Source of the DNA: Lachnospiraceae bacterium
GTDB lineage: Bacteria; Bacillota; Clostridia; Lachnospirales; Lachnospiraceae
DNA length: 62,260 nt
Direction of reading: 5' to 3'
NCBI GenBank assembly: GCA_017433725.1
Contig: JAFRGQ010000073.1
Span: forward strand, 1 to 62,260
Shown here: piece after piece, positions 13,871 to 32,585 of the stretch
Numbering within the stretch: position 1 is the first letter of the stretch
Layout of the letters: each line of letters opens with the position of its first letter
Notes under the pieces: model-generated
Seen by the model: the letters and a program-made list of their open reading frames with translations, nothing else
Told to the model about the DNA's origin: nothing
Database searches by the model: none
Position numbers and translations under genes: made by a program

Positions 13871-16800
13871 TTATTTATTGTTAAAGAAGTTCGCGTTGAA
13901 TCCGTTGATCTGGGACTTCCAGTTGCTGCCGATATGCGCATTCATGTAATGCGATACATGGCTGTTCCAATTCTTGGTATCCATGTACTTGAATACATCT
14001 GCGGACGGTTTTGCCGAACCGTTGCTGTGATATATACCAAGCCACCAGCCGCCTGATGTCTCGCCGGAATTGTCATAATCGCGATGTATAGCGAGCATAT
14101 CAATATTCGGGTCGAACTCCGCGAGATAGTAGGCAAATGCCACCGAAGCCGCCTGCTGTCCCTCGAAATTATGTCCCTGATAAACAGATGACAATCCGGT
14201 CTCGGACATAATGACACGCGTGGCGGACCCGTATGTACTCTTAATGTAAGCTGCAAAATATCTCGCATTCAGCATTGTGATCTGCTGAGATGAACCGGAA
14301 TTCTCGATGGTGAACACGCGATTCCAGAAACGGCAATCCTGCTCAGGCGACGGATAAGGATGCATCGCCATATCCCAGTGAACGAGTCCCTGTCTCCTCA
14401 GGTCTGTGTTGAAGTCTGCCGTGAGCTTCATTCCGTTGTACGAGCCGGCCAGACTCCACGAGAGATTCCAGTTGTGATCAAGAGAAATATAGGTTCTCGC
14501 ATTGCTCCATCTACTCTTGATGGATGCATTGAACATACGGAATCCTTCAGCCATTGCCTCATGGAACTCACTGTATGATACATCACCGGTATAATTATAC
14601 GTATTATACTGCTGCAGCTCATTGCCGTAGATCCAGTTCGCAAGCGTTATACCGTTGGTACTCCATTTCTCTGCCAGGCACGCGAACAGTGCTTCGAGAC
14701 GTTTTCTGTGACTGTTCTTTGTATTCAGCGCATAAAGCGTAGCAGAATTCTTTCTGCTTCCGGTTACGGCAGCCGGATACATATAATTCGTGTTTGAACC
14801 GTCATACAGGTAGAAGATACCCGTCACAACAATTCCGGCGTTGTTATAGGACTTAATCCTATCGCCGTATACATTGATGATACTGCTGAAATGATATGTC
14901 TTTCCTTCATATTGGTAGGCAAGATCGTTGCCTGCAAGGAAACCGTCAATCGGAAGATCAAGAACCACATGGCTGCAGTTGAGATTCTTAGCAAGGCCCA
15001 CAGAATCCGCACTCGTCTTAATACCTTTCTTGGTGCCGTGTGCAGGCTTCGGGAAAGCTTTCGTGTTCGTTGCCGCAGCCTGAGGATTCTGAATATAATA
15101 TGCATTACTGATAATGCGGTAGATTCCCCGGTTCACCGTAGCTATGTAGAATTTCTTCTGAAGAAGACTGTTCGCACTGTTCTTATTCAACTTAACATTA
15201 AATGTGTATTCTGTCGCCATAGGAGCATGCGCAAGCGGCGTATGATCCCTGACAGTCGTTTCATACGGTTCGACCGCAAAAAGATAAGCATAACCTGTGT
15301 CTGAAGCCTGTTTACCGCCTTTGGCAGTAACCGTGACCGTATTGTGATCTGAGGCAGAAACCGTATTCTTGTTGATGCGGACACATGTGAGATACCATCT
15401 CTGCCTTTGGGCTGCTTCATATGTCGCAAGACGGACGTTGGCACCGTACGCTTCGGAGCCGGTACTCTCAATGACCATCTTTGTATTCAGACAAGATCTC
15501 AGTACGAAACTGCCGTCACCTCTGATCACAGGATCCCAAAGCTGAGCTTTCGTTCCCTTATATGTACCCAGCTCGATATTTGCGTGCTCATGGGCTGAGC
15601 CGCCGGCGACCTGAAGCACCTTGCCTGATGCGGTAGCAGTGATCTTATACCAGGTATTTGTCGTATTGCCGTATGCTACAGGCTCCATCTTGAATTTCTG
15701 GGCAGCAGTCTCATTCCAGTCATACAAATCGATGTTCGTTCCATCCGCCGTTCCGGCTGCGCTGACATCGAGAACACGGTCCGTGTTTTTGACTGAACGG
15801 ATATAGACCGCATTGGTCGGAACGAAATCCGGAGTGTAAACGCTCTTCACGAATTTCTGACAGCCCAGATTCCTGAATGTATTCACAATCATCGTGGTCC
15901 CGGCACTGACTCCGCCGCCCTTGGCACAGAGCGAAATGCTGGAATTGGAGCGCGGAAGATAAGCAAACGTTCCGTCAGAATATCTTCTGATCAGCCACTG
16001 CTGCGCGAACTTATTGGTACGCTTTTCCTGAATGACATTGCATCCCGACTTACTGCCGTTGTTTTCGACTGTAAGTGCCATTCCGTTGCTCTTATTGACC
16101 AGAATATAGTAACCGGCTATATGATGAACCGCAGTATACTTCAGGATGTCCTTATTATCTGCATTTGCAAGCTGTACGTCTGCTCCGCTCGCTTTTGAAT
16201 TCTTGGCCGGGGCTACACATTTTGTCAGCGCATTTGTCGGTCTCAGCTGAATGACGCCCGCATAATTCGGAATCGGCGCCTCGGTAAAGATAAACTTCTG
16301 CGCATTTGTATTATTGCTCTTATATACCTGCAGATTGGAGTTCTCAGCTATTGCCCCTGCATATACGTCAAATACGATGCTTGAATTCAGCATGGATGCA
16401 AGGCGATAAGATCCGTCAGCGTTCTTAATAGGCTTCCAACGTCCCGATCTCGCACCGCTGAACTCGTACTGCCAGAGGTTCGCATAATTCTTGGCAGTAT
16501 TTCCCTCTATACGGATAGCTTTGCCGCTGTGAAGATTGGTGAACACATATGTTCCGTCGGACAGTTTGCGGCACATGAATTTCTGCTTCAGGCTGTTGGT
16601 GAGCTTTGAAATAATCATGTTTGCCCCGTTGGATACAGAACTCGCATTGACCGTGACGCAATAGTTCTTGTTCGTGGCACAACGGATATAGTAGGTCTTT
16701 CCATCGACCGGTACGGCGGAAGTATACTTCGCACCTACAAGGACTTCCTGCTCCTTGCTCAGATCGCTGAGACTGGAATCTGTCAGAGAATCCGTCTTGC

Positions 16801-17182
16801 TCTCTGTTTTCGCACTCGAATCAGTGCTCTCGTCAGAAGAAAGGGAGCCCGCAGAAACGCTCGAATCTGCAGTTTCCGCTTCCGATACGACTGCACTCTC
16901 AGCCCCGGTCGCGCTTTCAACATTCTCCGGAACGGCGTCCGTTTCCGCACCGGTATTTTCTTCATTTCCCTCGTTTTGGATTTTCTCCGCTTCAGCTAAG
17001 GCAGCAAGAGACTCGTCTCTCAGCTCTTCCCGCGTCTTGTCTCCCTCCACAAGACCGGCAACATTCGCTGCTCCTACAACTGTCTCCGCGGCCGTATCGA
17101 GCTCTGCAGCGTAGACAGGCGTCAGAAGCCCCGCTATCAGCAATGCGGAAATAATACATGCTATCAGTTTCTTTCCTTTCAC
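13871..17182 (-). CDS. large secreted protein: ricin-type lectin repeats plus glycosidase-like DUF5722 domain
   Basis: An 1103-residue secreted protein with a GTG start (GGGAGG at 7 nt) and signal peptide 1-25 ending VYAAE. Residues about 60-145 form a Ser/Glu/Thr-rich spacer. About 155-600 carry three ricin-like beta-trefoil blocks with repeated Q-x-F/W motifs (QKFMCR, QKFIFT, QQWLIR, QKFVKS, QKFKME, QLWDPV, QRWYLT). About 600-700 is a beta-rich connector. About 715-1095 resembles DUF5722, a TIM-barrel glycosidase-like domain. It keeps a GNE motif (Glu about 855) and SETG (Glu about 994) that could be the acid/base and nucleophile of a clan GH-A enzyme. No cell-wall anchor is seen. Substrate unknown. 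Confidence 0.85.
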   Translation of the reverse strand: MKGKKLIACIISALLIAGLLTPVYAAELDTAAETVVGAANVAGLVEGDKTREELRDESLAALAEAEKIQNEGNEENTGAETDAVPENVESATGAESAVVSEAETADSSVSAGSLSSDESTDSSAKTESKTDSLTDSSLSDLSKEQEVLVGAKYTSAVPVDGKTYYIRCATNKNYCVTVNASSVSNGANMIISKLTNSLKQKFMCRKLSDGTYVFTNLHSGKAIRIEGNTAKNYANLWQYEFSGARSGRWKPIKNADGSYRLASMLNSSIVFDVYAGAIAENSNLQVYKSNNTNAQKFIFTEAPIPNYAGVIQLRPTNALTKCVAPAKNSKASGADVQLANADNKDILKYTAVHHIAGYYILVNKSNGMALTVENNGSKSGCNVIQEKRTNKFAQQWLIRRYSDGTFAYLPRSNSSISLCAKGGGVSAGTTMIVNTFRNLGCQKFVKSVYTPDFVPTNAVYIRSVKNTDRVLDVSAAGTADGTNIDLYDWNETAAQKFKMEPVAYGNTTNTWYKITATASGKVLQVAGGSAHEHANIELGTYKGTKAQLWDPVIRGDGSFVLRSCLNTKMVIESTGSEAYGANVRLATYEAAQRQRWYLTCVRINKNTVSASDHNTVTVTAKGGKQASDTGYAYLFAVEPYETTVRDHTPLAHAPMATEYTFNVKLNKNSANSLLQKKFYIATVNRGIYRIISNAYYIQNPQAAATNTKAFPKPAHGTKKGIKTSADSVGLAKNLNCSHVVLDLPIDGFLAGNDLAYQYEGKTYHFSSIINVYGDRIKSYNNAGIVVTGIFYLYDGSNTNYMYPAAVTGSRKNSATLYALNTKNSHRKRLEALFACLAEKWSTNGITLANWIYGNELQQYNTYNYTGDVSYSEFHEAMAEGFRMFNASIKSRWSNARTYISLDHNWNLSWSLAGSYNGMKLTADFNTDLRRQGLVHWDMAMHPYPSPEQDCRFWNRVFTIENSGSSQQITMLNARYFAAYIKSTYGSATRVIMSETGLSSVYQGHNFEGQQAASVAFAYYLAEFDPNIDMLAIHRDYDNSGETSGGWWLGIYHSNGSAKPSADVFKYMDTKNWNSHVSHYMNAHIGSNWKSQINGFNANFFNNK

Positions 17183-23205: not shown

Positions 23206-24468
23206 TCATTTCGGGAACGCAATACCATATCTCCATATTTTATGTGTAGCGGGGAAAAATCCTCCGAACCCCAGATCTTCCGCCTTAACGACACAGCCTT
23301 CCGATGAACTGCAATAGAGCTCCAGCCTGAGTCTGGTCGTTCTGGACGGACGCTTCGGGAGCCCCGGAAGTTCCATTCTGACCAGCTTTCTGGTACTCCC
23401 ATCCATCGGTGCAAGGACAAATGTCAGATCGTCTTTACCGTCAAGAATGATCTCACAGACCCCTGATTCCTCGAACCAGTTCTTTCCGGCCTGAAGAAGA
23501 GGTATGAACATAAGCTTTCCGTCGACGAGCATATCCATGCCCACATCAGTCTTCAGAAGGTCCGGACTCATGTAGACCCTGCCCTTCATGGCTTTCTTTT
23601 CACTGATCTCGAGCGCAGCATAACATGCGCCTTTCACGAACAGATTGTCCCCGTAGAAAATGCGCCTTTTTCCCTTATTAAGAAAACGGATCGTTTTTTC
23701 CGGCCACTCTGTATCGAACCCGTCACCGGTTATGAGAACACCGGAATAGATATCTTCCTTCATATGCTTTGCTGCATATTCCAGGAATTGCTCATCCCTC
23801 CGTTCCGGGTCATCGGAAAGCTTACAGCACGAAGCAGTTTCCACCGTAACGGGTGCAGGTCTGACTGCCTTTTCCTCGTGCATCTCATGGTAGGTCACAT
23901 ATCCGTTGTCAAACGTGAACAGTGCAATATTCCTCATCCAGAAATCCGGTCTCTGGCTGTAGGTATAATAATAGAAGCTTTCCATATAATCCTGAAGCGA
24001 ATACTGTTCCGGTGCAAAACCGACAGCTGCCAGCGCCATCCTCAGATTCTCGACAAGAATAACATCCAGTTTTCCGGTGGTCACCATGATTTTTGACACG
24101 CCGGCCACGATATCCTTAAGTCCGGTGAGCCTGAGCGACTCCCTGAAAAAGAATGCAAGAAGCTGCCATGCCTGCGGAATCTCGTCTTCCCCCGGCGGTT
24201 CGTCCTTCGGTGCCTCGGTAATAGCCCTGTCATAGAGGTCAGCCAGATAGATACCGCCCATCTTCTTTCCGAAATACTCTGCTTCAAGGCCGAAATGCCA
24301 TTCGTTCTTGTTCGGTTTTCTGCCGATCGCAGTCGGAAAACGATACAGATTGGTCCCGACTTTGGTGGGAATACACACCGGCTCCTCAGCCTTACGGTCG
24401 TAGTAACAGATCTGCGAAAATTCCCTGTTAAATTCAAATCCTATCAGCACATTGCGAACTTCGTTCAA
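23206..24468 (-). CDS. DUF5716 family protein, degenerate Hsp70/actin-fold candidate
   Basis: A 420-residue protein with a TTG start (GGAGG at 7 nt) that overlaps the DUF5717 stop as TTGA, so translation is coupled. The N-terminus NVLIGFEFNREFSQICYYD resembles the phosphate-1 loop of actin/Hsp70 ATPases. About 183-190 (LFTFDNGY) is placed like phosphate-2. About 243-250 (GVLITGDG) with NLFVKGACYAAL (275-286) matches the adenosine-binding motif layout. The usual GGG of Hsp70 is absent, so nucleotide hydrolysis is uncertain. The C-terminal third is beta-rich (LRLELYCSSSEGCVV). The family name is from memory; the fold is inference. Confidence 0.82.
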   Translation of the reverse strand: MNEVRNVLIGFEFNREFSQICYYDRKAEEPVCIPTKVGTNLYRFPTAIGRKPNKNEWHFGLEAEYFGKKMGGIYLADLYDRAITEAPKDEPPGEDEIPQAWQLLAFFFRESLRLTGLKDIVAGVSKIMVTTGKLDVILVENLRMALAAVGFAPEQYSLQDYMESFYYYTYSQRPDFWMRNIALFTFDNGYVTYHEMHEEKAVRPAPVTVETASCCKLSDDPERRDEQFLEYAAKHMKEDIYSGVLITGDGFDTEWPEKTIRFLNKGKRRIFYGDNLFVKGACYAALEISEKKAMKGRVYMSPDLLKTDVGMDMLVDGKLMFIPLLQAGKNWFEESGVCEIILDGKDDLTFVLAPMDGSTRKLVRMELPGLPKRPSRTTRLRLELYCSSSEGCVVKAEDLGFGGFFPATHKIWRYGIAFPK

Positions 24469-27400
24469 AATTTTTCCTCCAGTACGAACAGTGTATCGAC
24501 CAACTGCTCTGTCTGCCTATACTGCCTTATCTTCTCGATCAACAGCTCCGGCTCCTCCGATTCACAAAGCTCCAGCATCTGATTGATCATCTGATACTGG
24601 CTTCTTCCGTCCATATCGCAGGAATCGGCTTTGGCAGAGAAGTCTTCGCTTCTCCATTCCTGACCTTCCCTGCTTATTGTAATATAGTATTCCAGTGTTT
24701 CTCCGTAGAACAGAACGAACTCACGAGTGAAAATACCTTTGTAGATGCGCTCAAGGGGCACGGTATCATACGGTTTTTCCATCTCTCCCGCAGCAAGAAG
24801 ACGATAGTGCAGAATAACCGTGTCGTCCTGCCGTGCGTGCTGCTCGACGAAGATCTTGTCGTCCAGTTCATATTGCGTAAGGAACGATATCGGAAACTCC
24901 TTAAAGAAAGCGAATCTGTACCCGCGCATGACACATTCATCCAGGATCGAGTCGATCAGGGCTTCCTCATGAATCGTGTACTCGTCTTTCTTTGAATAAT
25001 AGAGAAGAAGGGCCATTCTCCAGATCTGTTCGGTCTCCTCCCCGTCGTCGATACACCGGACAATATAGTCAGCCGAATATGTATCGATAGCCGTTCCGTT
25101 CGCGAAACACTGATCCGCCTCGAACGTGAGATAGTTCCGTATTACCTTTTCCTTCCCCTCGTGTTCCGCATAATACTTGAGGATCTCTCCGCCTTCCGGC
25201 AGGATTCTTCTTACGAAAATGCACCTGTTAAGAATTCTCTCGTCCAGCTCGTCCGTCCTGACGAACATTGCGTCCGCCGCATCCCGTATTCTGACCATCT
25301 CATCGAGATCTCCCTGGTAATTCGCAACGAGATACTCGAGCATATCGACATCATACTTATCCTGTCTGAAAACAACGCATACGAGAACAAGGAGTTCTTC
25401 GTCGTAACGTCCCTCCTTTTCTTTTATCATATAGCTGGCAAGTCTCACGAGTCGCCCGGCGTCCATGTTCTCGTAACCGAACTTGCCGAGCAGGGCAAAC
25501 GCCTCTTTATAGAATTCTCTGGAAATCATCGCGTTGGCAAGCAGGACCTTGTCCTCACCCACGAACGTGCGGTAATCGACTCTCTTCAGGTATTGATCAA
25601 GAGATTCATTCTCCGCATGCTCCGCAATGTATTTCAGAATCTCGCTTCTTACCTGAGATCGGAAAGCGGGCGTAAATTCCTCGGAACTCTCGATACGTCT
25701 CATCGCATCAAAATTTTGGACAGATATCTCCTCCAGCGAACCGCTTCCCATTGCTGTATTAAGCAGGAACCCCATGGTATCACAGTCTCTTGCCCTGCAT
25801 ATTCCGATCAGTTCACTTCTGTCCATGAGCGGCGTCTCGGAAAACGGAACGCCTGCAACAAAGCGGCTTCCCCTGCCGTCGGAGAAGAGAACTCTCGCGT
25901 TGGGGGTATACCGGCTCACATAGGCGACGCCCTGTCTGATCGGATATATATCCTCTTTCTGAAGTTCATCGTGGCACATGATGACTTCACGTACCCTCTG
26001 ATCATCCGTGTAGACACGGTTCGTAAACATGACTTCCGCGATCTCCTTTTCAAGATCGAGGCGGGCAAACTCGTCACTGAACGTCTGGTAGAGGACCGCG
26101 TAGGAGCTGTCGATCCGCTTCATTTCCAGTGCTTTGACGGCAAATTCAGACATTGCGCTCTCATAGCGCCCATACGTTGCGGGATCCTTTTCCCGGTTCC
26201 GGATGACATTTGCATAAATAAATGCTCTTTTCCTCTCGGAAAGCATTGTATTAAGAGCAAAATACTTGAGGATCTGCCGCGGCAGCAATTTCTGATATGT
26301 CTCAGGCATCGTCTCAACATAGAGCTCGTATAACCTTGTTATGCGGTAATCACTCTCCACTGCGAGCGAATACCATTTGAAGTACTCCGGATTGACCGGA
26401 TTTCCTTTCATAAGAAAGCGGATGATTGCCTCGAGAAGCTCCGGCAGCGGATGCATCTCATAAGCACCTGTCAGCATCCGGTAGACAGGCTGTGTAAAGG
26501 CTTTTTCATTTTCGGACAGATGCGCCATGCGGCTGGCAAGGTCTTTCGGAAGAACTTCATGTTTTACCGCAAATGTTAGCACATGTCTCATGAACGGATT
26601 AAGACGTCTCAGGTAGGACCCGTCACGCCTCAGAAGGCTGAGTGCCTCAATATAGAGCAGAGGACTTCTGCATCCGGTCTTGAAAAGTTCATCCATTGCA
26701 TAGATTTTCTTAGCCGGAGAGCGGAGATAGTCCGGGTCGATGCGGAAAAGGATCCACATAAGTATGAAGCTTTCCCGGTTTTTCCGCTGCCACTCGCGCA
26801 CATGACCCACGATGTCCATCTGCTGCGGATCCAGAAAGCCGGTAATATGCCCCATATAAAGAAACATTGCCTTGGCCTCGGCAGACTCACTCCTGAAGTC
26901 GCGTTGAGACATCTCTTTCATGATAAATCTTGCAGACTGACGATTGCCGGCCGTCTCCTCAACATATGCCTCATATAACTCGTAGAGGGTCGGATAGTCG
27001 CCCATCTCACGGATTGCCGTGAGAAGACTTCTTGTGCCGGTACAGTAAGCTTTGCGCTCGATTTTGTCCGTCTCATAATCTACATATAAGCGGGTCAGCT
27101 TGATCAGATTCTTTCTGGAGATCGTGCCCATATCTACACGGACCGGGCCGCTCTTCGATGCGACGACAGGAATCTCGATGATCTGATCCAGCGTGCGGAT
27201 CGTTACCTTTCCGTAATAGCGCCCTTTTCCGAGTCGTTCGTAACGGATAATATAATTGAATTCGCAGACAGATCCGACAAAGTCCTCACTAAGAATTCTT
27301 CTTCGCGGAATCTCGATAAAGTCGCTGTCCGACTCCGCGCGTACATCAAGGAAACCCCAGCCGCTCCGGTGAAGAGTGACCGTATTCTGCAGCGGTCCTT

Positions 27401-28025
27401 CCAGATTGAAGAATTGTCCTTCTTCCGCATCTGCCGAAATAGAGACCGGTTTTTTGTGCCCGGTCGCGACGAGGAATTCTTCAACACGCTGATAAGTGAC
27501 AGGATTTTTCGCCAGACCTCTGTATAGCGATTTTGTCTCCTCGTCACAGCCGGAAAGAACAAGCGGGAATGCAGGACTGGTAAATACCCTGTACGCTTCC
27601 TCGTAGTTTCCCCTTGCGAGCTGCGTGAAATCGTCAAGGTTCCTGATCGTTCCGTATGCGGATTCCAGCGGAAGGACCACAACGGAAACTGAGACAGGTA
27701 TGGAATACTCCCCCATGTTCGTTGCCAGAAGGATGTTTCCGGTCACACGTTCTCCTCCCCGGAGTCCGGTCGTAAAGACTCCGAAATGAATCTGGAGAGT
27801 GGAACCGCTGTAACGCTGCTTCTCCGGGACGATACGAGCAGAGTCGGTCGAGACATATGCCCGCATCTTTATATTTTCAGCATTGCTGACAATGAGATCA
27901 GCTTCAAAATTTTCCCCTTCGCTCACACCGGCTTCGAAGTACTCCGTCGAGAATGTGAGAGCATTCTGGGTGCTGTCATAAATGTCATCATTTTCGTAGA
28001 TCGTGCGAATCAAATCTGCTTCCAT
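24465..28025 (-). CDS. DUF5717 family giant protein
   Basis: An 1186-residue protein, first gene of a three-gene unit. Residues about 30-125 look like a beta-sandwich domain (FEAGVSEGENFEADLIVSNA, GGERVTGNILLATNMGEYSI). A second beta segment is near 205-310. From about 330 to 1000 the protein is a long run of helical, TPR-like pairs with many Tyr/Leu/Glu. The C-terminus (about 1000-1186) returns to a mixed fold. No membrane segment or signal is seen. Start: the upstream ATG at 28073 lies inside the predicted -10 box, so the ATG at 28025 is preferred; a TTG at 28013 is also possible. Function unknown; probably a scaffold or client-binding partner of DUF5716. Confidence 0.82.
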   Translation of the reverse strand: MEADLIRTIYENDDIYDSTQNALTFSTEYFEAGVSEGENFEADLIVSNAENIKMRAYVSTDSARIVPEKQRYSGSTLQIHFGVFTTGLRGGERVTGNILLATNMGEYSIPVSVSVVVLPLESAYGTIRNLDDFTQLARGNYEEAYRVFTSPAFPLVLSGCDEETKSLYRGLAKNPVTYQRVEEFLVATGHKKPVSISADAEEGQFFNLEGPLQNTVTLHRSGWGFLDVRAESDSDFIEIPRRRILSEDFVGSVCEFNYIIRYERLGKGRYYGKVTIRTLDQIIEIPVVASKSGPVRVDMGTISRKNLIKLTRLYVDYETDKIERKAYCTGTRSLLTAIREMGDYPTLYELYEAYVEETAGNRQSARFIMKEMSQRDFRSESAEAKAMFLYMGHITGFLDPQQMDIVGHVREWQRKNRESFILMWILFRIDPDYLRSPAKKIYAMDELFKTGCRSPLLYIEALSLLRRDGSYLRRLNPFMRHVLTFAVKHEVLPKDLASRMAHLSENEKAFTQPVYRMLTGAYEMHPLPELLEAIIRFLMKGNPVNPEYFKWYSLAVESDYRITRLYELYVETMPETYQKLLPRQILKYFALNTMLSERKRAFIYANVIRNREKDPATYGRYESAMSEFAVKALEMKRIDSSYAVLYQTFSDEFARLDLEKEIAEVMFTNRVYTDDQRVREVIMCHDELQKEDIYPIRQGVAYVSRYTPNARVLFSDGRGSRFVAGVPFSETPLMDRSELIGICRARDCDTMGFLLNTAMGSGSLEEISVQNFDAMRRIESSEEFTPAFRSQVRSEILKYIAEHAENESLDQYLKRVDYRTFVGEDKVLLANAMISREFYKEAFALLGKFGYENMDAGRLVRLASYMIKEKEGRYDEELLVLVCVVFRQDKYDVDMLEYLVANYQGDLDEMVRIRDAADAMFVRTDELDERILNRCIFVRRILPEGGEILKYYAEHEGKEKVIRNYLTFEADQCFANGTAIDTYSADYIVRCIDDGEETEQIWRMALLLYYSKKDEYTIHEEALIDSILDECVMRGYRFAFFKEFPISFLTQYELDDKIFVEQHARQDDTVILHYRLLAAGEMEKPYDTVPLERIYKGIFTREFVLFYGETLEYYITISREGQEWRSEDFSAKADSCDMDGRSQYQMINQMLELCESEEPELLIEKIRQYRQTEQLVDTLFVLEEKF

Positions 28026-28071
28026 CCTTATCTCATATTTATGCCCGGATGCGGGCAGTAACACAAAATGC

Positions 28072-28100
28072 ATTATACATCATAAAAAATGTCCATGCAA
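28072..28100 (-). promoter_or_regulatory. promoter of the DUF5717-DUF5716-TPR unit
   Basis: Minus strand TTGCAT (28095-28100), 17 bp, TATAAT (28072-28077). It overlaps the polC terminator and sits about 45 nt before the chosen DUF5717 start. Confidence 0.6.
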
Positions 28101-28154: not shown

Positions 28155-31100
28155 TCATCCCAACATATCAAAAAGAGATATCTGATTGGATTCCGGAATA
28201 TCTCCGAGGATGTCGTACTCGTCGAAAAGGTCGATAATTGTCTGGGACACTTTAGTCCTCTGCCGGAAATCATCCTTCGAAAGGAACGGGCCCTTCTTCG
28301 CAGCCTCCTCGATCGATTCCGCCGCGGAATCTCCGAGTCCGGCAATGGAGTTAAAGGACGGCATGAGCTTTCCGTCCAATATGGTGAAGCGCTTCGCCGA
28401 CGCCTTATAAAGGTCGAGCCGGTGAAACTCAAAACCTCTGGCATACATTTCCCGGACGATCAGCATATCCTTCAGCATTTCCTCCTCTTTCTGGGATTTG
28501 TCCGGTTTCTTTTCCAGTTCGGCGGCATGGTTTTCCATGACATCGCGTCCCTGTGCCATGATAACATAGTCAAATGTCGTAACGCGGATCGAGAACATGG
28601 CAGCGTAATATGCCAACGGATAATTGATCTTATAGTAAGCTATGCGGAAAGCATTCATTACATACGCCGCCGCATGCGCTTTCGGGAACATGTACTTAAT
28701 CCTCTTGCACGATTCAATATACCAGTCTGGAACATTGTGCTCCCGCATTTCTTTTTCCTGATCAGGTTTGAGCCCTTTGCCCTTTCGGACGGCTTCCATG
28801 ATCTTGAAGGAGTGTTCCGGCTCAACGCCCCACGCTATCAGGTTCAGCATGATGTCGTCTCGCGTACATATAGCAGTCGAAAGCGTGCAGTCTCCGTTTC
28901 TGATGAAATACTGCGCATTGTCCAGCCATACATTTGTCCCGTGGGAAAGACCAGAGATACGTATAAGTTCCGACAATGTCGCGGGCTTCGTATCCCGAAG
29001 CATCCCCATGACGAAATTCGTCCCGAATTCCGGAACCCCAAGCACGCCGAGATCGATGCCGCCCATATCTTCCGGCTTCACGCCCAGGGCTTCTGTACCT
29101 GTGAAAAGTGAGAGTACGCCGGGATCATCAAGCGGCACCTCAAGCGGATTTGTGCCGGTCAGGTCCTCAAGCATACGAATAATCGTCGGATCATCGTGTC
29201 CCAGAATATCCAGTTTCAGAAGATTCCTGTCAATCGAGTGGTAATCGAAATGCGTCGTGATAATATCGCTCGTCACATCGTTTGCAGGATGCTGCACCGG
29301 CGTGAACCAGTTGATGTCCATGCCTTTGGGCAGTACGATGACTCCGCCCGGATGCTGACCGGTCGTTCTACGAACGCCGACGCAGCCCTGCGCAAGTCTC
29401 TCCAGTTCACAGTTCTTTTTGGGAACGCCTTTATCCTCAAAATAATGTCTGGCCAGTCCGTATGCCGTCTTCTCCGCGACCGTACCGATCGTTCCGGCCT
29501 TAAAAGTCTGCCCTTTTCCAAAGATGACCTCGGTGTATGCCTGCGCGACTCCCTGCTCATCCCCGGAGAAATTCAGGTCTATATCCGGCTCCTTGTCACC
29601 CTTGAATCCCAGGAATGTCTCGAAAGGTATATCGAATCCCATCTTCTTGAGGGGAGCGCCGCAGACCGGGCAATTCTTATCCGGCATGTCCGCGCCGCAT
29701 CTGCCTCCGTAAGCCCGGACCTCGTCAGAATCGAAATCCACGTAGTGGCATTCCGGGCACAGGTAATGCGGCGGAAGCGGGTTGACCTCCGTGATATTTG
29801 ACATTGTTGCCACAAGCGAGGAACCGACAGATCCCCGGGAACCGACCAGATAACCGTCCTCTCTGGACTTCTGCACAAGCCTCTGCGCGATTATGTACAT
29901 GACCGCGTAACCGTTCTTAATAATAGAAGTCAGTTCCTTATTCAGTCTTGACGTGACCTGTTCCGGGATCGGCTCGCCGTATATTTTTCTCGCCGTCTCA
30001 TAACACATGTTCTGCAGATCCTCGTCGGAATTCTCAATGACAGGCGGGCATTTGTCCGGATGGATCGGAGAAATGTGCTCGATCATATCCGCGATCTTGT
30101 TCGTATTTGTAACGACCACCTCATAGGCCTTCTCCTGGCCGAGGTAGGCGAATTCCTCCATCATCTCCTCTGTCGTGTGCAGATATAGAGGCGGCTGCCC
30201 CTCATCCTTGAAACCGTGGCCGGACTGGATGATAGTCCTGTAGATCGCGTCCTCCGGATTCAGGAAATGAACGTCACAGGTCGCCACGCACGGCTTGCCG
30301 AAGTCTTCGGCGAGACGAACGATTTTCCGGTTGATTTCGCGGAGCTCGTCGAAAGATGTGATTCCGCGCACATGCTCCCTTACCATATACTCATTGTTCC
30401 CGACCGGCTGGACCTCAAGATAATCGTAAAAGTTCACGATTTTGGCGATCTCCGACGCCGGCTTTTCATTCAGTATGGCGTGATAAAGCTCTCCGGCAGA
30501 GCATGCCGAACCGATCACGAGACCGTCCCTGTGCTTCATGAGCAAGGATCTGGGAATTCTCGGCCTCTTCTTAAAATATCTGAGATGTGACTCGGAAACA
30601 AGCGTGTACAAATTGCGCCTTCCCGCCTCGTTCTTTGCAAGCAGGATAATATGATAATAGGGCAGGTTCCGTATTCTCTCCTCGGAAACCATTCCCCTCT
30701 CGTTCAGATCCGCGTACGTCAGGATATTCTGTTTCTTCATAGCATCCCTGATCTGCAGCCATGCATGAGCCATAGCCTGCGCACGATCCTCTGCCCGTTC
30801 CGGCGTTTGACACTGAATCTTCAATGACTTGCAGAGCCTCTCCATGGTTCCTCTGCTGACATGCGGCATGAGATAACGGACGCAGGACGGGATATCGACG
30901 ATCGTCCTCTCTCTCCGGCTGATCTCGCCTTCTTCATTTTCGGAAACAATGTCCCATGTAAGGTCCGCCTTGCGAACGGCTTCTTCTACGAACGCCGCCT
31001 CATTTTCAGCATCGAACGAGACCAGCGTCATGTCCCCTGCAAAGGCAAGAAAACGCTCCATAGCCGAACGCACATCCGGTGCTTTCGAGACCATATCGTC

Positions 31101-32585
31101 ATTGATCTTCGTCTCTCTCGTAAATGCGAACGGGAGCGGCCTGCCCGGATTGATGAGCGTTGTGAATCTCTCCGTGAGGTTGCCCTTCTCGACCTTCTGT
31201 GCGGATATCTCCACAAGATCATGCCGGACTGCACTCGGTCCGGTGGTGACTGTCTGGAAAATGATGACCGGCTCCGAGGTATCCCTCTCCGCAGGTCCCT
31301 TGACCAGGCTCACCATATCATCGACCAGATATCCTTCGCAGCCGTAGATGACCTTAAAGTCCGGATCTTTTTCATCGGATGCGTGGTGCGCTTCCGGAAA
31401 AGCCTGCACCACACCGTGGTCGGTGATAGCCAGCGCCTTCATTCCCCAGCCTTTGGCCTGCTTTATAATATCCTTAGCTGAAGATACAGCATCCATGTCG
31501 GACATTTTGGTATGACAGTGCAGCTCCACACGCTTTTCGGGTGCGTGGTCGGCACGTGTATTCTTGAAAGAGCCTATTCTCTTAATACAATAGACGGTCT
31601 TGATCATGAGTTCCTTCTCGAACTGGTCGAAATCCATCATGCCCTTTACCAGGAAGAACTGCCCGTTTTTGATCTGGTCGGTATACGCTCCGAGTTCTTC
31701 CGGCAGCAGCCATAGTTTAAAGCGTATACTGTCCGTATAATCTGTCAGAGCTGCGGTGAGGATGATCTTTCCGTTTCTCGTCTCGTGGCTCTCCACGCCG
31801 AACACTTCCCCGCGCACGACAACTTCATGCGGGTCTTCTCCGAGAGTAGCGATCGGCGTCGGGTCTTCGAAGATACCCTTTCCGAGAATGACGTCGGGAT
31901 CTTTCGAGACAAAGGCTTTCTGCTGCTTGTACTTCTTCTCTGAAGCATTCGGAAGCTTCTGCGCAGGTTCCTCCTCCTTCTTCTCCCTTCGTGTTCTGTT
32001 TCTCCTGACCACGTCGGATACCTTATTCCGGATCTTTTCGTCATCTGCCTGGAACAGCTCCTGCACGTCATTCGATACGATCTCGCCGTCGACGCGTACA
32101 TAGGACAGTCCGGCGCGCTCGCAAAAGACCTTCTCAAGATAATCAAGAAGGTCATCCTTTCTCTGACGGGCTATCATACTGTCCGGAATTTTCGCGTAAA
32201 TCTTGCCGTCATCCTGAAATTCAAGCGCGGTGTGGGCAAATACCTGATAGAGAAGCGGACTCACCTCCATGAGTTCCTGATTCATGCTGGTCCGATACAC
32301 CCGATAGAAATACTTCGGCGTATACTGAGATGAAAGATGAAATCGTTCAATGACCTTCACCTCCATATCCACTTTTCCGAATATCTGCTCCCTGATCGCA
32401 TTTTCTATTTCGTATATGAATTTTTTCCTGATCCAATTGTCCGAATAAATATAAACATGCAGGCGAGTCTTACTCTGATTGACTGTCACTCTGGTAACAG
32501 TGACATAGTCGAGGAGATCCCTGATCTCCTTCTCCACTTTCAGAGACGGAAAAGCCTGCATGAAAGACATTTCTCTGTTATTCAT
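28155..32585 (-). CDS. polC: DNA polymerase III alpha subunit, Gram-positive PolC type, with degenerate exonuclease domain
   Basis: A 1476-residue replicative polymerase. Order: N-terminal domain; OB fold (about 215-330, EVVVRGEVFGVESHET); PHP domain starting ELHCHTKMSDMDA (about 352); an inserted DEDDh-type exonuclease region (about 437-610); PHP remainder; then the polymerase core (GSRGSVGSSLVATMS, a Cys zinc knuckle with LCPECHY and CPVCGAP, DIDLNFSGDEQ) and tail. The polymerase aspartates in PDIDLNF are intact. In the exonuclease, exo I reads FQTVTTG (Q444, V446 where DxE is expected), exo II ends NE (E529 for Asp), and exo III has E596 and R601 where His and Asp are expected. It follows ispG by 2 bp. 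Confidence 0.97.
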   Translation of the reverse strand: MNNREMSFMQAFPSLKVEKEIRDLLDYVTVTRVTVNQSKTRLHVYIYSDNWIRKKFIYEIENAIREQIFGKVDMEVKVIERFHLSSQYTPKYFYRVYRTSMNQELMEVSPLLYQVFAHTALEFQDDGKIYAKIPDSMIARQRKDDLLDYLEKVFCERAGLSYVRVDGEIVSNDVQELFQADDEKIRNKVSDVVRRNRTRREKKEEEPAQKLPNASEKKYKQQKAFVSKDPDVILGKGIFEDPTPIATLGEDPHEVVVRGEVFGVESHETRNGKIILTAALTDYTDSIRFKLWLLPEELGAYTDQIKNGQFFLVKGMMDFDQFEKELMIKTVYCIKRIGSFKNTRADHAPEKRVELHCHTKMSDMDAVSSAKDIIKQAKGWGMKALAITDHGVVQAFPEAHHASDEKDPDFKVIYGCEGYLVDDMVSLVKGPAERDTSEPVIIFQTVTTGPSAVRHDLVEISAQKVEKGNLTERFTTLINPGRPLPFAFTRETKINDDMVSKAPDVRSAMERFLAFAGDMTLVSFDAENEAAFVEEAVRKADLTWDIVSENEEGEISRRERTIVDIPSCVRYLMPHVSRGTMERLCKSLKIQCQTPERAEDRAQAMAHAWLQIRDAMKKQNILTYADLNERGMVSEERIRNLPYYHIILLAKNEAGRRNLYTLVSESHLRYFKKRPRIPRSLLMKHRDGLVIGSACSAGELYHAILNEKPASEIAKIVNFYDYLEVQPVGNNEYMVREHVRGITSFDELREINRKIVRLAEDFGKPCVATCDVHFLNPEDAIYRTIIQSGHGFKDEGQPPLYLHTTEEMMEEFAYLGQEKAYEVVVTNTNKIADMIEHISPIHPDKCPPVIENSDEDLQNMCYETARKIYGEPIPEQVTSRLNKELTSIIKNGYAVMYIIAQRLVQKSREDGYLVGSRGSVGSSLVATMSNITEVNPLPPHYLCPECHYVDFDSDEVRAYGGRCGADMPDKNCPVCGAPLKKMGFDIPFETFLGFKGDKEPDIDLNFSGDEQGVAQAYTEVIFGKGQTFKAGTIGTVAEKTAYGLARHYFEDKGVPKKNCELERLAQGCVGVRRTTGQHPGGVIVLPKGMDINWFTPVQHPANDVTSDIITTHFDYHSIDRNLLKLDILGHDDPTIIRMLEDLTGTNPLEVPLDDPGVLSLFTGTEALGVKPEDMGGIDLGVLGVPEFGTNFVMGMLRDTKPATLSELIRISGLSHGTNVWLDNAQYFIRNGDCTLSTAICTRDDIMLNLIAWGVEPEHSFKIMEAVRKGKGLKPDQEKEMREHNVPDWYIESCKRIKYMFPKAHAAAYVMNAFRIAYYKINYPLAYYAAMFSIRVTTFDYVIMAQGRDVMENHAAELEKKPDKSQKEEEMLKDMLIVREMYARGFEFHRLDLYKASAKRFTILDGKLMPSFNSIAGLGDSAAESIEEAAKKGPFLSKDDFRQRTKVSQTIIDLFDEYDILGDIPESNQISLFDMLG

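Follow-up and report, generated by a model that had tools for sequence, protein, structure and literature searches.

The polC locus

The stretch of DNA considered here, hereafter the window, comprises 62,260 nucleotides from a Lachnospiraceae bacterium (assembly GCA_017433725.1, contig JAFRGQ010000073.1, positions 1 to 62,260 of the forward strand), and our analysis concerns its polC gene, which encodes the C-family replicase PolC, and particularly the DnaQ-like (DEDDh) exonuclease domain inserted in this protein. The open reading frame at 28155-32585 on the minus strand encodes a full-length PolC of 1476 amino acids, which in a profile search scored 1622 bits against PRK00448 (cut-off 873) and 1477 against TIGR01405 (cut-off 1043), and it is the sole PolC found in the genome assembly (98 contigs, 77% complete). 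The DnaQ-like domain (residues 440-630) is inserted between the PHP ligands E417 and H645 and is matched weakly by the RNase_T profile (31 bits, residues 447-527). The polymerase aspartates D1001, D1003 and D1126 are present, as the original prediction, made from this sequence before the comparisons reported here, had stated. The protein ends in QISLF, which by its consensus we take to be a clamp-binding motif. The parts of the gene are as follows.

28155..32585, minus strand: PolC open reading frame, 1476 amino acids (PRK00448, TIGR01405 and RNase_T profiles; solved PolC chains)
31296..31550, minus strand: first half of PHP, residues 346-430, ligands H356, H358, D365, H390 and E417 intact (alignment)
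30696..31268, minus strand: pseudo-exonuclease (DnaQ/DEDDh) domain, residues 440-630 (alignment, fold model)
31248..31256, minus strand: Exo I position, Q444 and V446 replacing D and E (alignment)
30999..31001, minus strand: Exo II position, E529 replacing D (alignment)
30783..30800, minus strand: Exo III positions, E596 and R601 replacing H and D (alignment)
30186..30668, minus strand: second half of PHP, residues 640-800, ligands H645, C695, D771 and H773 intact (alignment)
28158..30185, minus strand: polymerase core to the C-terminus, D1001, D1003 and D1126 intact, C-terminal QISLF (open reading frame translation, alignment)

Loss of the exonuclease active site

An active DEDDh exonuclease carries the set D-E-D-H-D, and the window PolC reads Q-V-E-E-R at these places, with codons, computed from the reading frame, at 31254-31256 (Q444), 31248-31250 (V446), 30999-31001 (E529), 30798-30800 (E596) and 30783-30785 (R601). 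The span 30790..31260 to which the original prediction had assigned the loss takes in four of the altered codons, and that of R601 falls just outside it. The PolC chains 9qpc and 2p1j align with the five sites in register, which confirms that the catalytic set is lost; against the solved PolC exonuclease sequences no shift of the alignment restores the acids, and none reappear near Exo I or Exo III. Exo II has also lost its HN pair, E529 is a conservative change from aspartate, and D525 is a new residue conserved in the clade. By the DEDDh mechanism, acids in one motif alone should not be able to rebuild a two-metal site.

Extent of the loss

The window's genus, whose named records are of Lachnospiraceae and in many cases from ruminant gut, is represented in the collection by 42 genomes, and 36 of these, window included, are readable at all five sites. 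Thirty keep none of the five residues, six retain a single one (D444 in G001 and G007, D529 in G026, H596 in G006, G011 and G035) and none keeps two, so that the claim of a loss of every catalytic residue holds for the window but not for each of its relatives. None of the 36 has E446 or D601; position 601 can be read in 38 rows, and 33 of them have arginine. Three further genomes (G003, G009, G005) have lost the residues where these can be read, except for the Exo III histidine kept in G009, and three (G008, G037, G040) are unreadable at the exonuclease sites. In a tree built without the exonuclease columns the 36 dead rows form one side of a single branch with support 100 (FastTree local support, not bootstrap; one long branch, L062, is of unsure placement). 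The loss is fixed: every readable member of the genus has it, and the members form one clade. Most simply, the catalytic set would have been lost once, before the sampled members diverged.

Outside the genus, the family sample comprised 200 genomes, one per genus, of which 196 gave a match; PolC was taken from 100, namely the best-scoring rows plus some lower ones, with a bias to nearer relatives. DEDHD is found in 99 of these 100 genera. The exception, G199, reads REQHY with an intact PHP, while both its congeners are intact; this loss is independent of that in the window's genus. With one species dead and two congeners live, G199 (L165 / L243) suits a before/after comparison. From the class, 293 genomes were sampled, of which 273 had a match; this sample gave 69 loci, 29 from the search with the window excluded and 40 fetched; 12 of the 29 belong to Lachnospiraceae and some duplicate the family sample. 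All 68 readable class rows are intact at both exonuclease and PHP. Proteins below 700 amino acids, such as L321 (668), were kept out of the alignment; of its 276 rows, 11 that could not be read at the sites and 39 duplicates were dropped, which left 226 distinct PolCs.

The dead domain is kept and selected

That the domain retains its fold-level pattern, as had been predicted, is borne out by an AlphaFold2 model with a mean predicted local distance difference test score of 94.4 and by Foldseek, whose top matches are PolC, DinG and DnaQ exonuclease structures; the catalytically dead domain models as still exonuclease-folded. In eight pairs from the genus the ratio of non-synonymous to synonymous substitution rates (dN/dS) of the domain is 0.06-0.29, though dS was high in several pairs and inestimable for some domains. 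Purifying selection acts on the domain, which is not decaying.

Relative to the polymerase core, it evolves about twice as fast as live exonuclease domains: its branch length is 3.71 over 33 dead rows against 1.80-2.02 in live ones (97 rows, sampled eight times at 33 rows each); by subclade it is 3.4-4.8 in seven dead ones and 1.3-2.2 in 21 live ones, both sets being nested. The relative branch length of the OB domain is unchanged (2.70 dead, 2.33-2.83 live). At eight positions within the exonuclease domain or next to it, the dead and the live groups are each fixed to 80% or more for different residues, and the new clade consensus residues are V446, L477, E491, D525, I565, F581, R601 and N640. 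A gained clamp-binding motif in a dead exonuclease domain has been described for PolA2; here, in a conservation table inspected by eye only, no conserved columns suggest one. Net charge (-3.6 in dead domains, -9.5 in live ones) was left unused as a signal, as it partly follows from the lost acids.

The PHP site and reciprocal losses

According to a survey published in 2026 (PMC12926913), the nine-ligand pattern HHDHEH[C/H]DH is the criterion for an active PHP. The window PolC has all nine metal ligands, and HHDHEHCDH is found in all 36 fully readable PolCs of the genus. Among the 226 distinct PolCs, exonuclease and PHP are both intact in 185, the exonuclease is dead and PHP intact in 37 (36 from the genus and G199), the exonuclease is absent and PHP intact in two (L060 and L064, from other Bacillota, which lack the Exo insertion), and the exonuclease is intact and PHP changed in two (L238 from G119, and L062). 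None of the 226 has lost both. These reciprocal losses form a consistent pattern, not a statistical proof. In G119 (L238 / L245) a live DEDHD stands with the PHP ligands NHDNDRNDH, a reverse loss within the same family.

A proposal for PHP-only proofreading

With moderate confidence we propose that this PolC proofreads by its PHP site only and that the dead DnaQ domain remains as a structural element next to the PHP groove. In M. tuberculosis DnaE1 the PHP domain is the proofreader, and the DnaQ domain of PolC is inserted in the loop that borders the PHP groove in this DnaE1 (PMC5636811). The PHP site of the same polypeptide would have gone on with proofreading after the DnaQ domain's loss of cutting, and the dead domain may be needed there for the path of the primer end, shaping the groove, guiding the 3' end or holding PHP and polymerase together; it is probably retained for some non-cutting role near the groove. 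More tentatively, and as a suggestion to which we give slightly less than an even chance, the whole genus may depend on PHP-only proofreading, with the domain, incapable of cutting throughout the clade's history, refitted to guide or gate the primer end towards the PHP site and bearing a conserved arginine at the place of the Exo III aspartate. The original prediction had left a choice between another proofreader and a mutator state; a complete set of PHP ligands in the same polypeptide sharpens this choice, and the second option seems the less likely.

Several points weigh against the proposal. We infer the PHP exonuclease activity of this PolC from its ligands and the structural role of the dead domain from its position, and PHP-only proofreading by a PolC was not found reported in the literature searched. 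The PHP ligands are intact also in 99 of the 100 other family genera sampled, as they are in all 68 class rows, and therefore their presence does not single out the genus. The independent losses are few, which leaves the absence of double losses statistically weak. The first half of PHP has a shorter branch relative to the polymerase core in the dead clade (0.92 against 1.27-1.54 live), but this is a trend only, as the subclades are nested and non-independent and three live ones at 0.90-1.04 overlap the dead (0.63-1.01); the second half is not slower (1.35 dead, 1.32-1.55 live).

Alternative explanations

A separate DEDDh enzyme might proofread in trans, which we consider unlikely. The only near-universal candidate found is a KapD-like exonuclease of about 320-370 amino acids, matched in 39 of the 42 genomes of the genus (in the window genome only as a 112-residue fragment); a search of 59 other genomes of the family gave 34 matches that were strong, with E values up to about 1e-60. 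Its DEDDh residues are intact in all 16 copies covered at the five sites, 12 of them from the genus, and it is present in G199, where the exonuclease was lost a second time. Since it is also common in relatives with a live PolC exonuclease, it was not gained as compensation; moreover, none was found in G030 (97% complete), to which the window is most closely related, and its best NCBIfam match, KapD, is far below the cut-off, while DnaQ models match weakly.

A standalone DnaQ as a gained substitute was rejected: a PF00929 search over the 42 genomes gave, beside the KapD-like family, only sporadic DnaQ-like and other RNase_T proteins. The same search missed the KapD-like protein in G021 and G025, both found by a direct search. 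The one other RNase_T match above threshold in the window genome is a Cas2-DEDDh fusion that stands beside Cas1 and an array of repeats spaced 61 bases; it was rejected as a replicative proofreader. This locus (L003:128-3465, contig C98 near 146126) comprises Cas1, the Cas2e-DEDDh fusion and at least 23 repeats; the DEDDh motifs of the fusion are apparently intact, and the CRISPR locus has its own DnaQ-like domain.

It is also rather improbable that the partner DnaE, a putative DnaE1 under the Clostridia rule of PMC12926913, took over the bulk of synthesis or proofreads for PolC in trans, leaving PolC with a reduced role. HHDHEHCDH is kept in all 20 fetched DnaE proteins of the genus, and the DnaQ domain of B. 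subtilis PolC can correct for DnaE in trans (PMC12926913); therefore, cross-correction between both exists. However, dN/dS of the polymerase core of PolC in the genus is 0.014-0.072 in seven of eight pairs, those with an estimable dS, a strong constraint; the three polymerase aspartates are kept wherever aligned (the first two are not aligned in L099 and L019), and there is no sign in the data of a changed division of labour.

Equally improbable, in our estimate, is that the replicase of the genus goes without proofreading and that a raised mutation rate, restrained by mismatch repair, is tolerated. MutS-like matches are found in all 42 genomes, 37 of them above the MutS1 cut-off, and the third-position GC content of polC is high (median 0.73; 0.49 in 99 live rows of the family), a possible effect of a shifted mutation bias. 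The same content is also high in the two live congeners of G199 (0.67 and 0.64), and as a sign of altered mutation bias it was rejected as non-diagnostic. Three of the 99 live relatives exceed the median of the dead clade. In B. subtilis the induction of proofreading-deficient polC and/or mutL brought mutation rates to between some hundreds and 6000 times that of the reference, and in lines with both alleles selection favoured lowered mutation rates (PMC11890065); here the PHP site of PolC is complete. A permanent mutator state seems the less likely option because PHP ligands are kept in PolC (nine of nine) and DnaE (20 of 20), and KapD-like and MutS-like proteins occur in 39 and 42 of the 42 genomes.

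An artefact, either a sequencing error or acids at shifted positions, has a negligible probability, even though the window and many relatives are metagenome assemblies and Exo II has acidic residues at D525 (clade consensus and window) and E529, since the agreement of independent species, 36 genomes forming one clade, with solved exonuclease sequences in register and E446 and D601 gone throughout, excludes an error.

Other observations

In the window polC adjoins ispG, and genes with DUF5717 and DUF5716 lie directly downstream of it (23206-28073, minus strand). An open reading frame of 1103 amino acids at 13871-17182 (minus strand) contains DUF5722 and several ricin-B-type lectin repeats, and its product is taken for a putative carbohydrate-binding protein. 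Elsewhere, the PolC L176 (G047) reads PEIVLNFSGE for the expected PDIDLNFSGD, with two polymerase aspartates changed, in a 67% complete assembly where an error is possible, and L118 (G019, contig C230) is a second, divergent PolC-like frame of about 800 amino acids with a VVVDIETTG exonuclease start and shortened PHP and polymerase parts.

Comparison with known systems

Other PolCs of Lachnospiraceae (Butyrivibrio, Roseburia and others) share with the genus the domain order, the PHP ligands and the polymerase aspartates, but their DEDHD is intact. In PolC of Bacilli (Geobacillus kaustophilus 3f2b and chain 9qpc) one of the two nuclease sites is likewise disabled; there it is PHP that is altered, with asparagine at the position of D771 in both aligned chains, while in the genus it is the DnaQ domain. 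The G. kaustophilus PolC, with one PHP ligand changed, has no PHP exonuclease activity (PMC5636811), and the PolC described here is best read as its mirror image. Chain 9qpc reads FAVATTG at Exo I, which we regard as a likely engineered knock-out.

About 6% of PolCs are without the Exo insertion, all but one of them in Clostridia and Negativicutes (PMC3919608). In such proteins the DnaQ function is gone, and in L060 and L064, the two in our set, the PHP ligands are intact as in the genus; the domain is absent there, whereas here it persists, folded and under selection, as a pseudo-enzyme. Mycobacterial DnaE1 (PMC5636811) has the same nine-ligand residue pattern as the PHP of this PolC; it is, however, a DnaE without a DnaQ insertion and its activity was measured, while in our case PHP is a proposed proofreader known by its ligands.

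PolC of Clostridia has two candidate proofreading sites, and a clade with one of them dead makes the contribution of PHP directly testable. The retained dead domain also raises the question of roles of proofreading domains beyond cutting. Eukaryotic Pol zeta and alpha also retain dead exonuclease domains. Kept dead domains are further described for PolA2/APEX, PolB2 and about half of PolA1 (PMC12926913). Among the titles and abstract openings searched, most subscription journals lying outside this search, none described a wild-type PolC that retains a dead DnaQ domain. Within that scope, what is already known from A- and B-family polymerases is new in the C-family replicase PolC, and while the same survey holds that in Pol III alpha subunits it is PHP, not DnaQ, that gets inactivated (PMC12926913), the genus described here is a counterexample.

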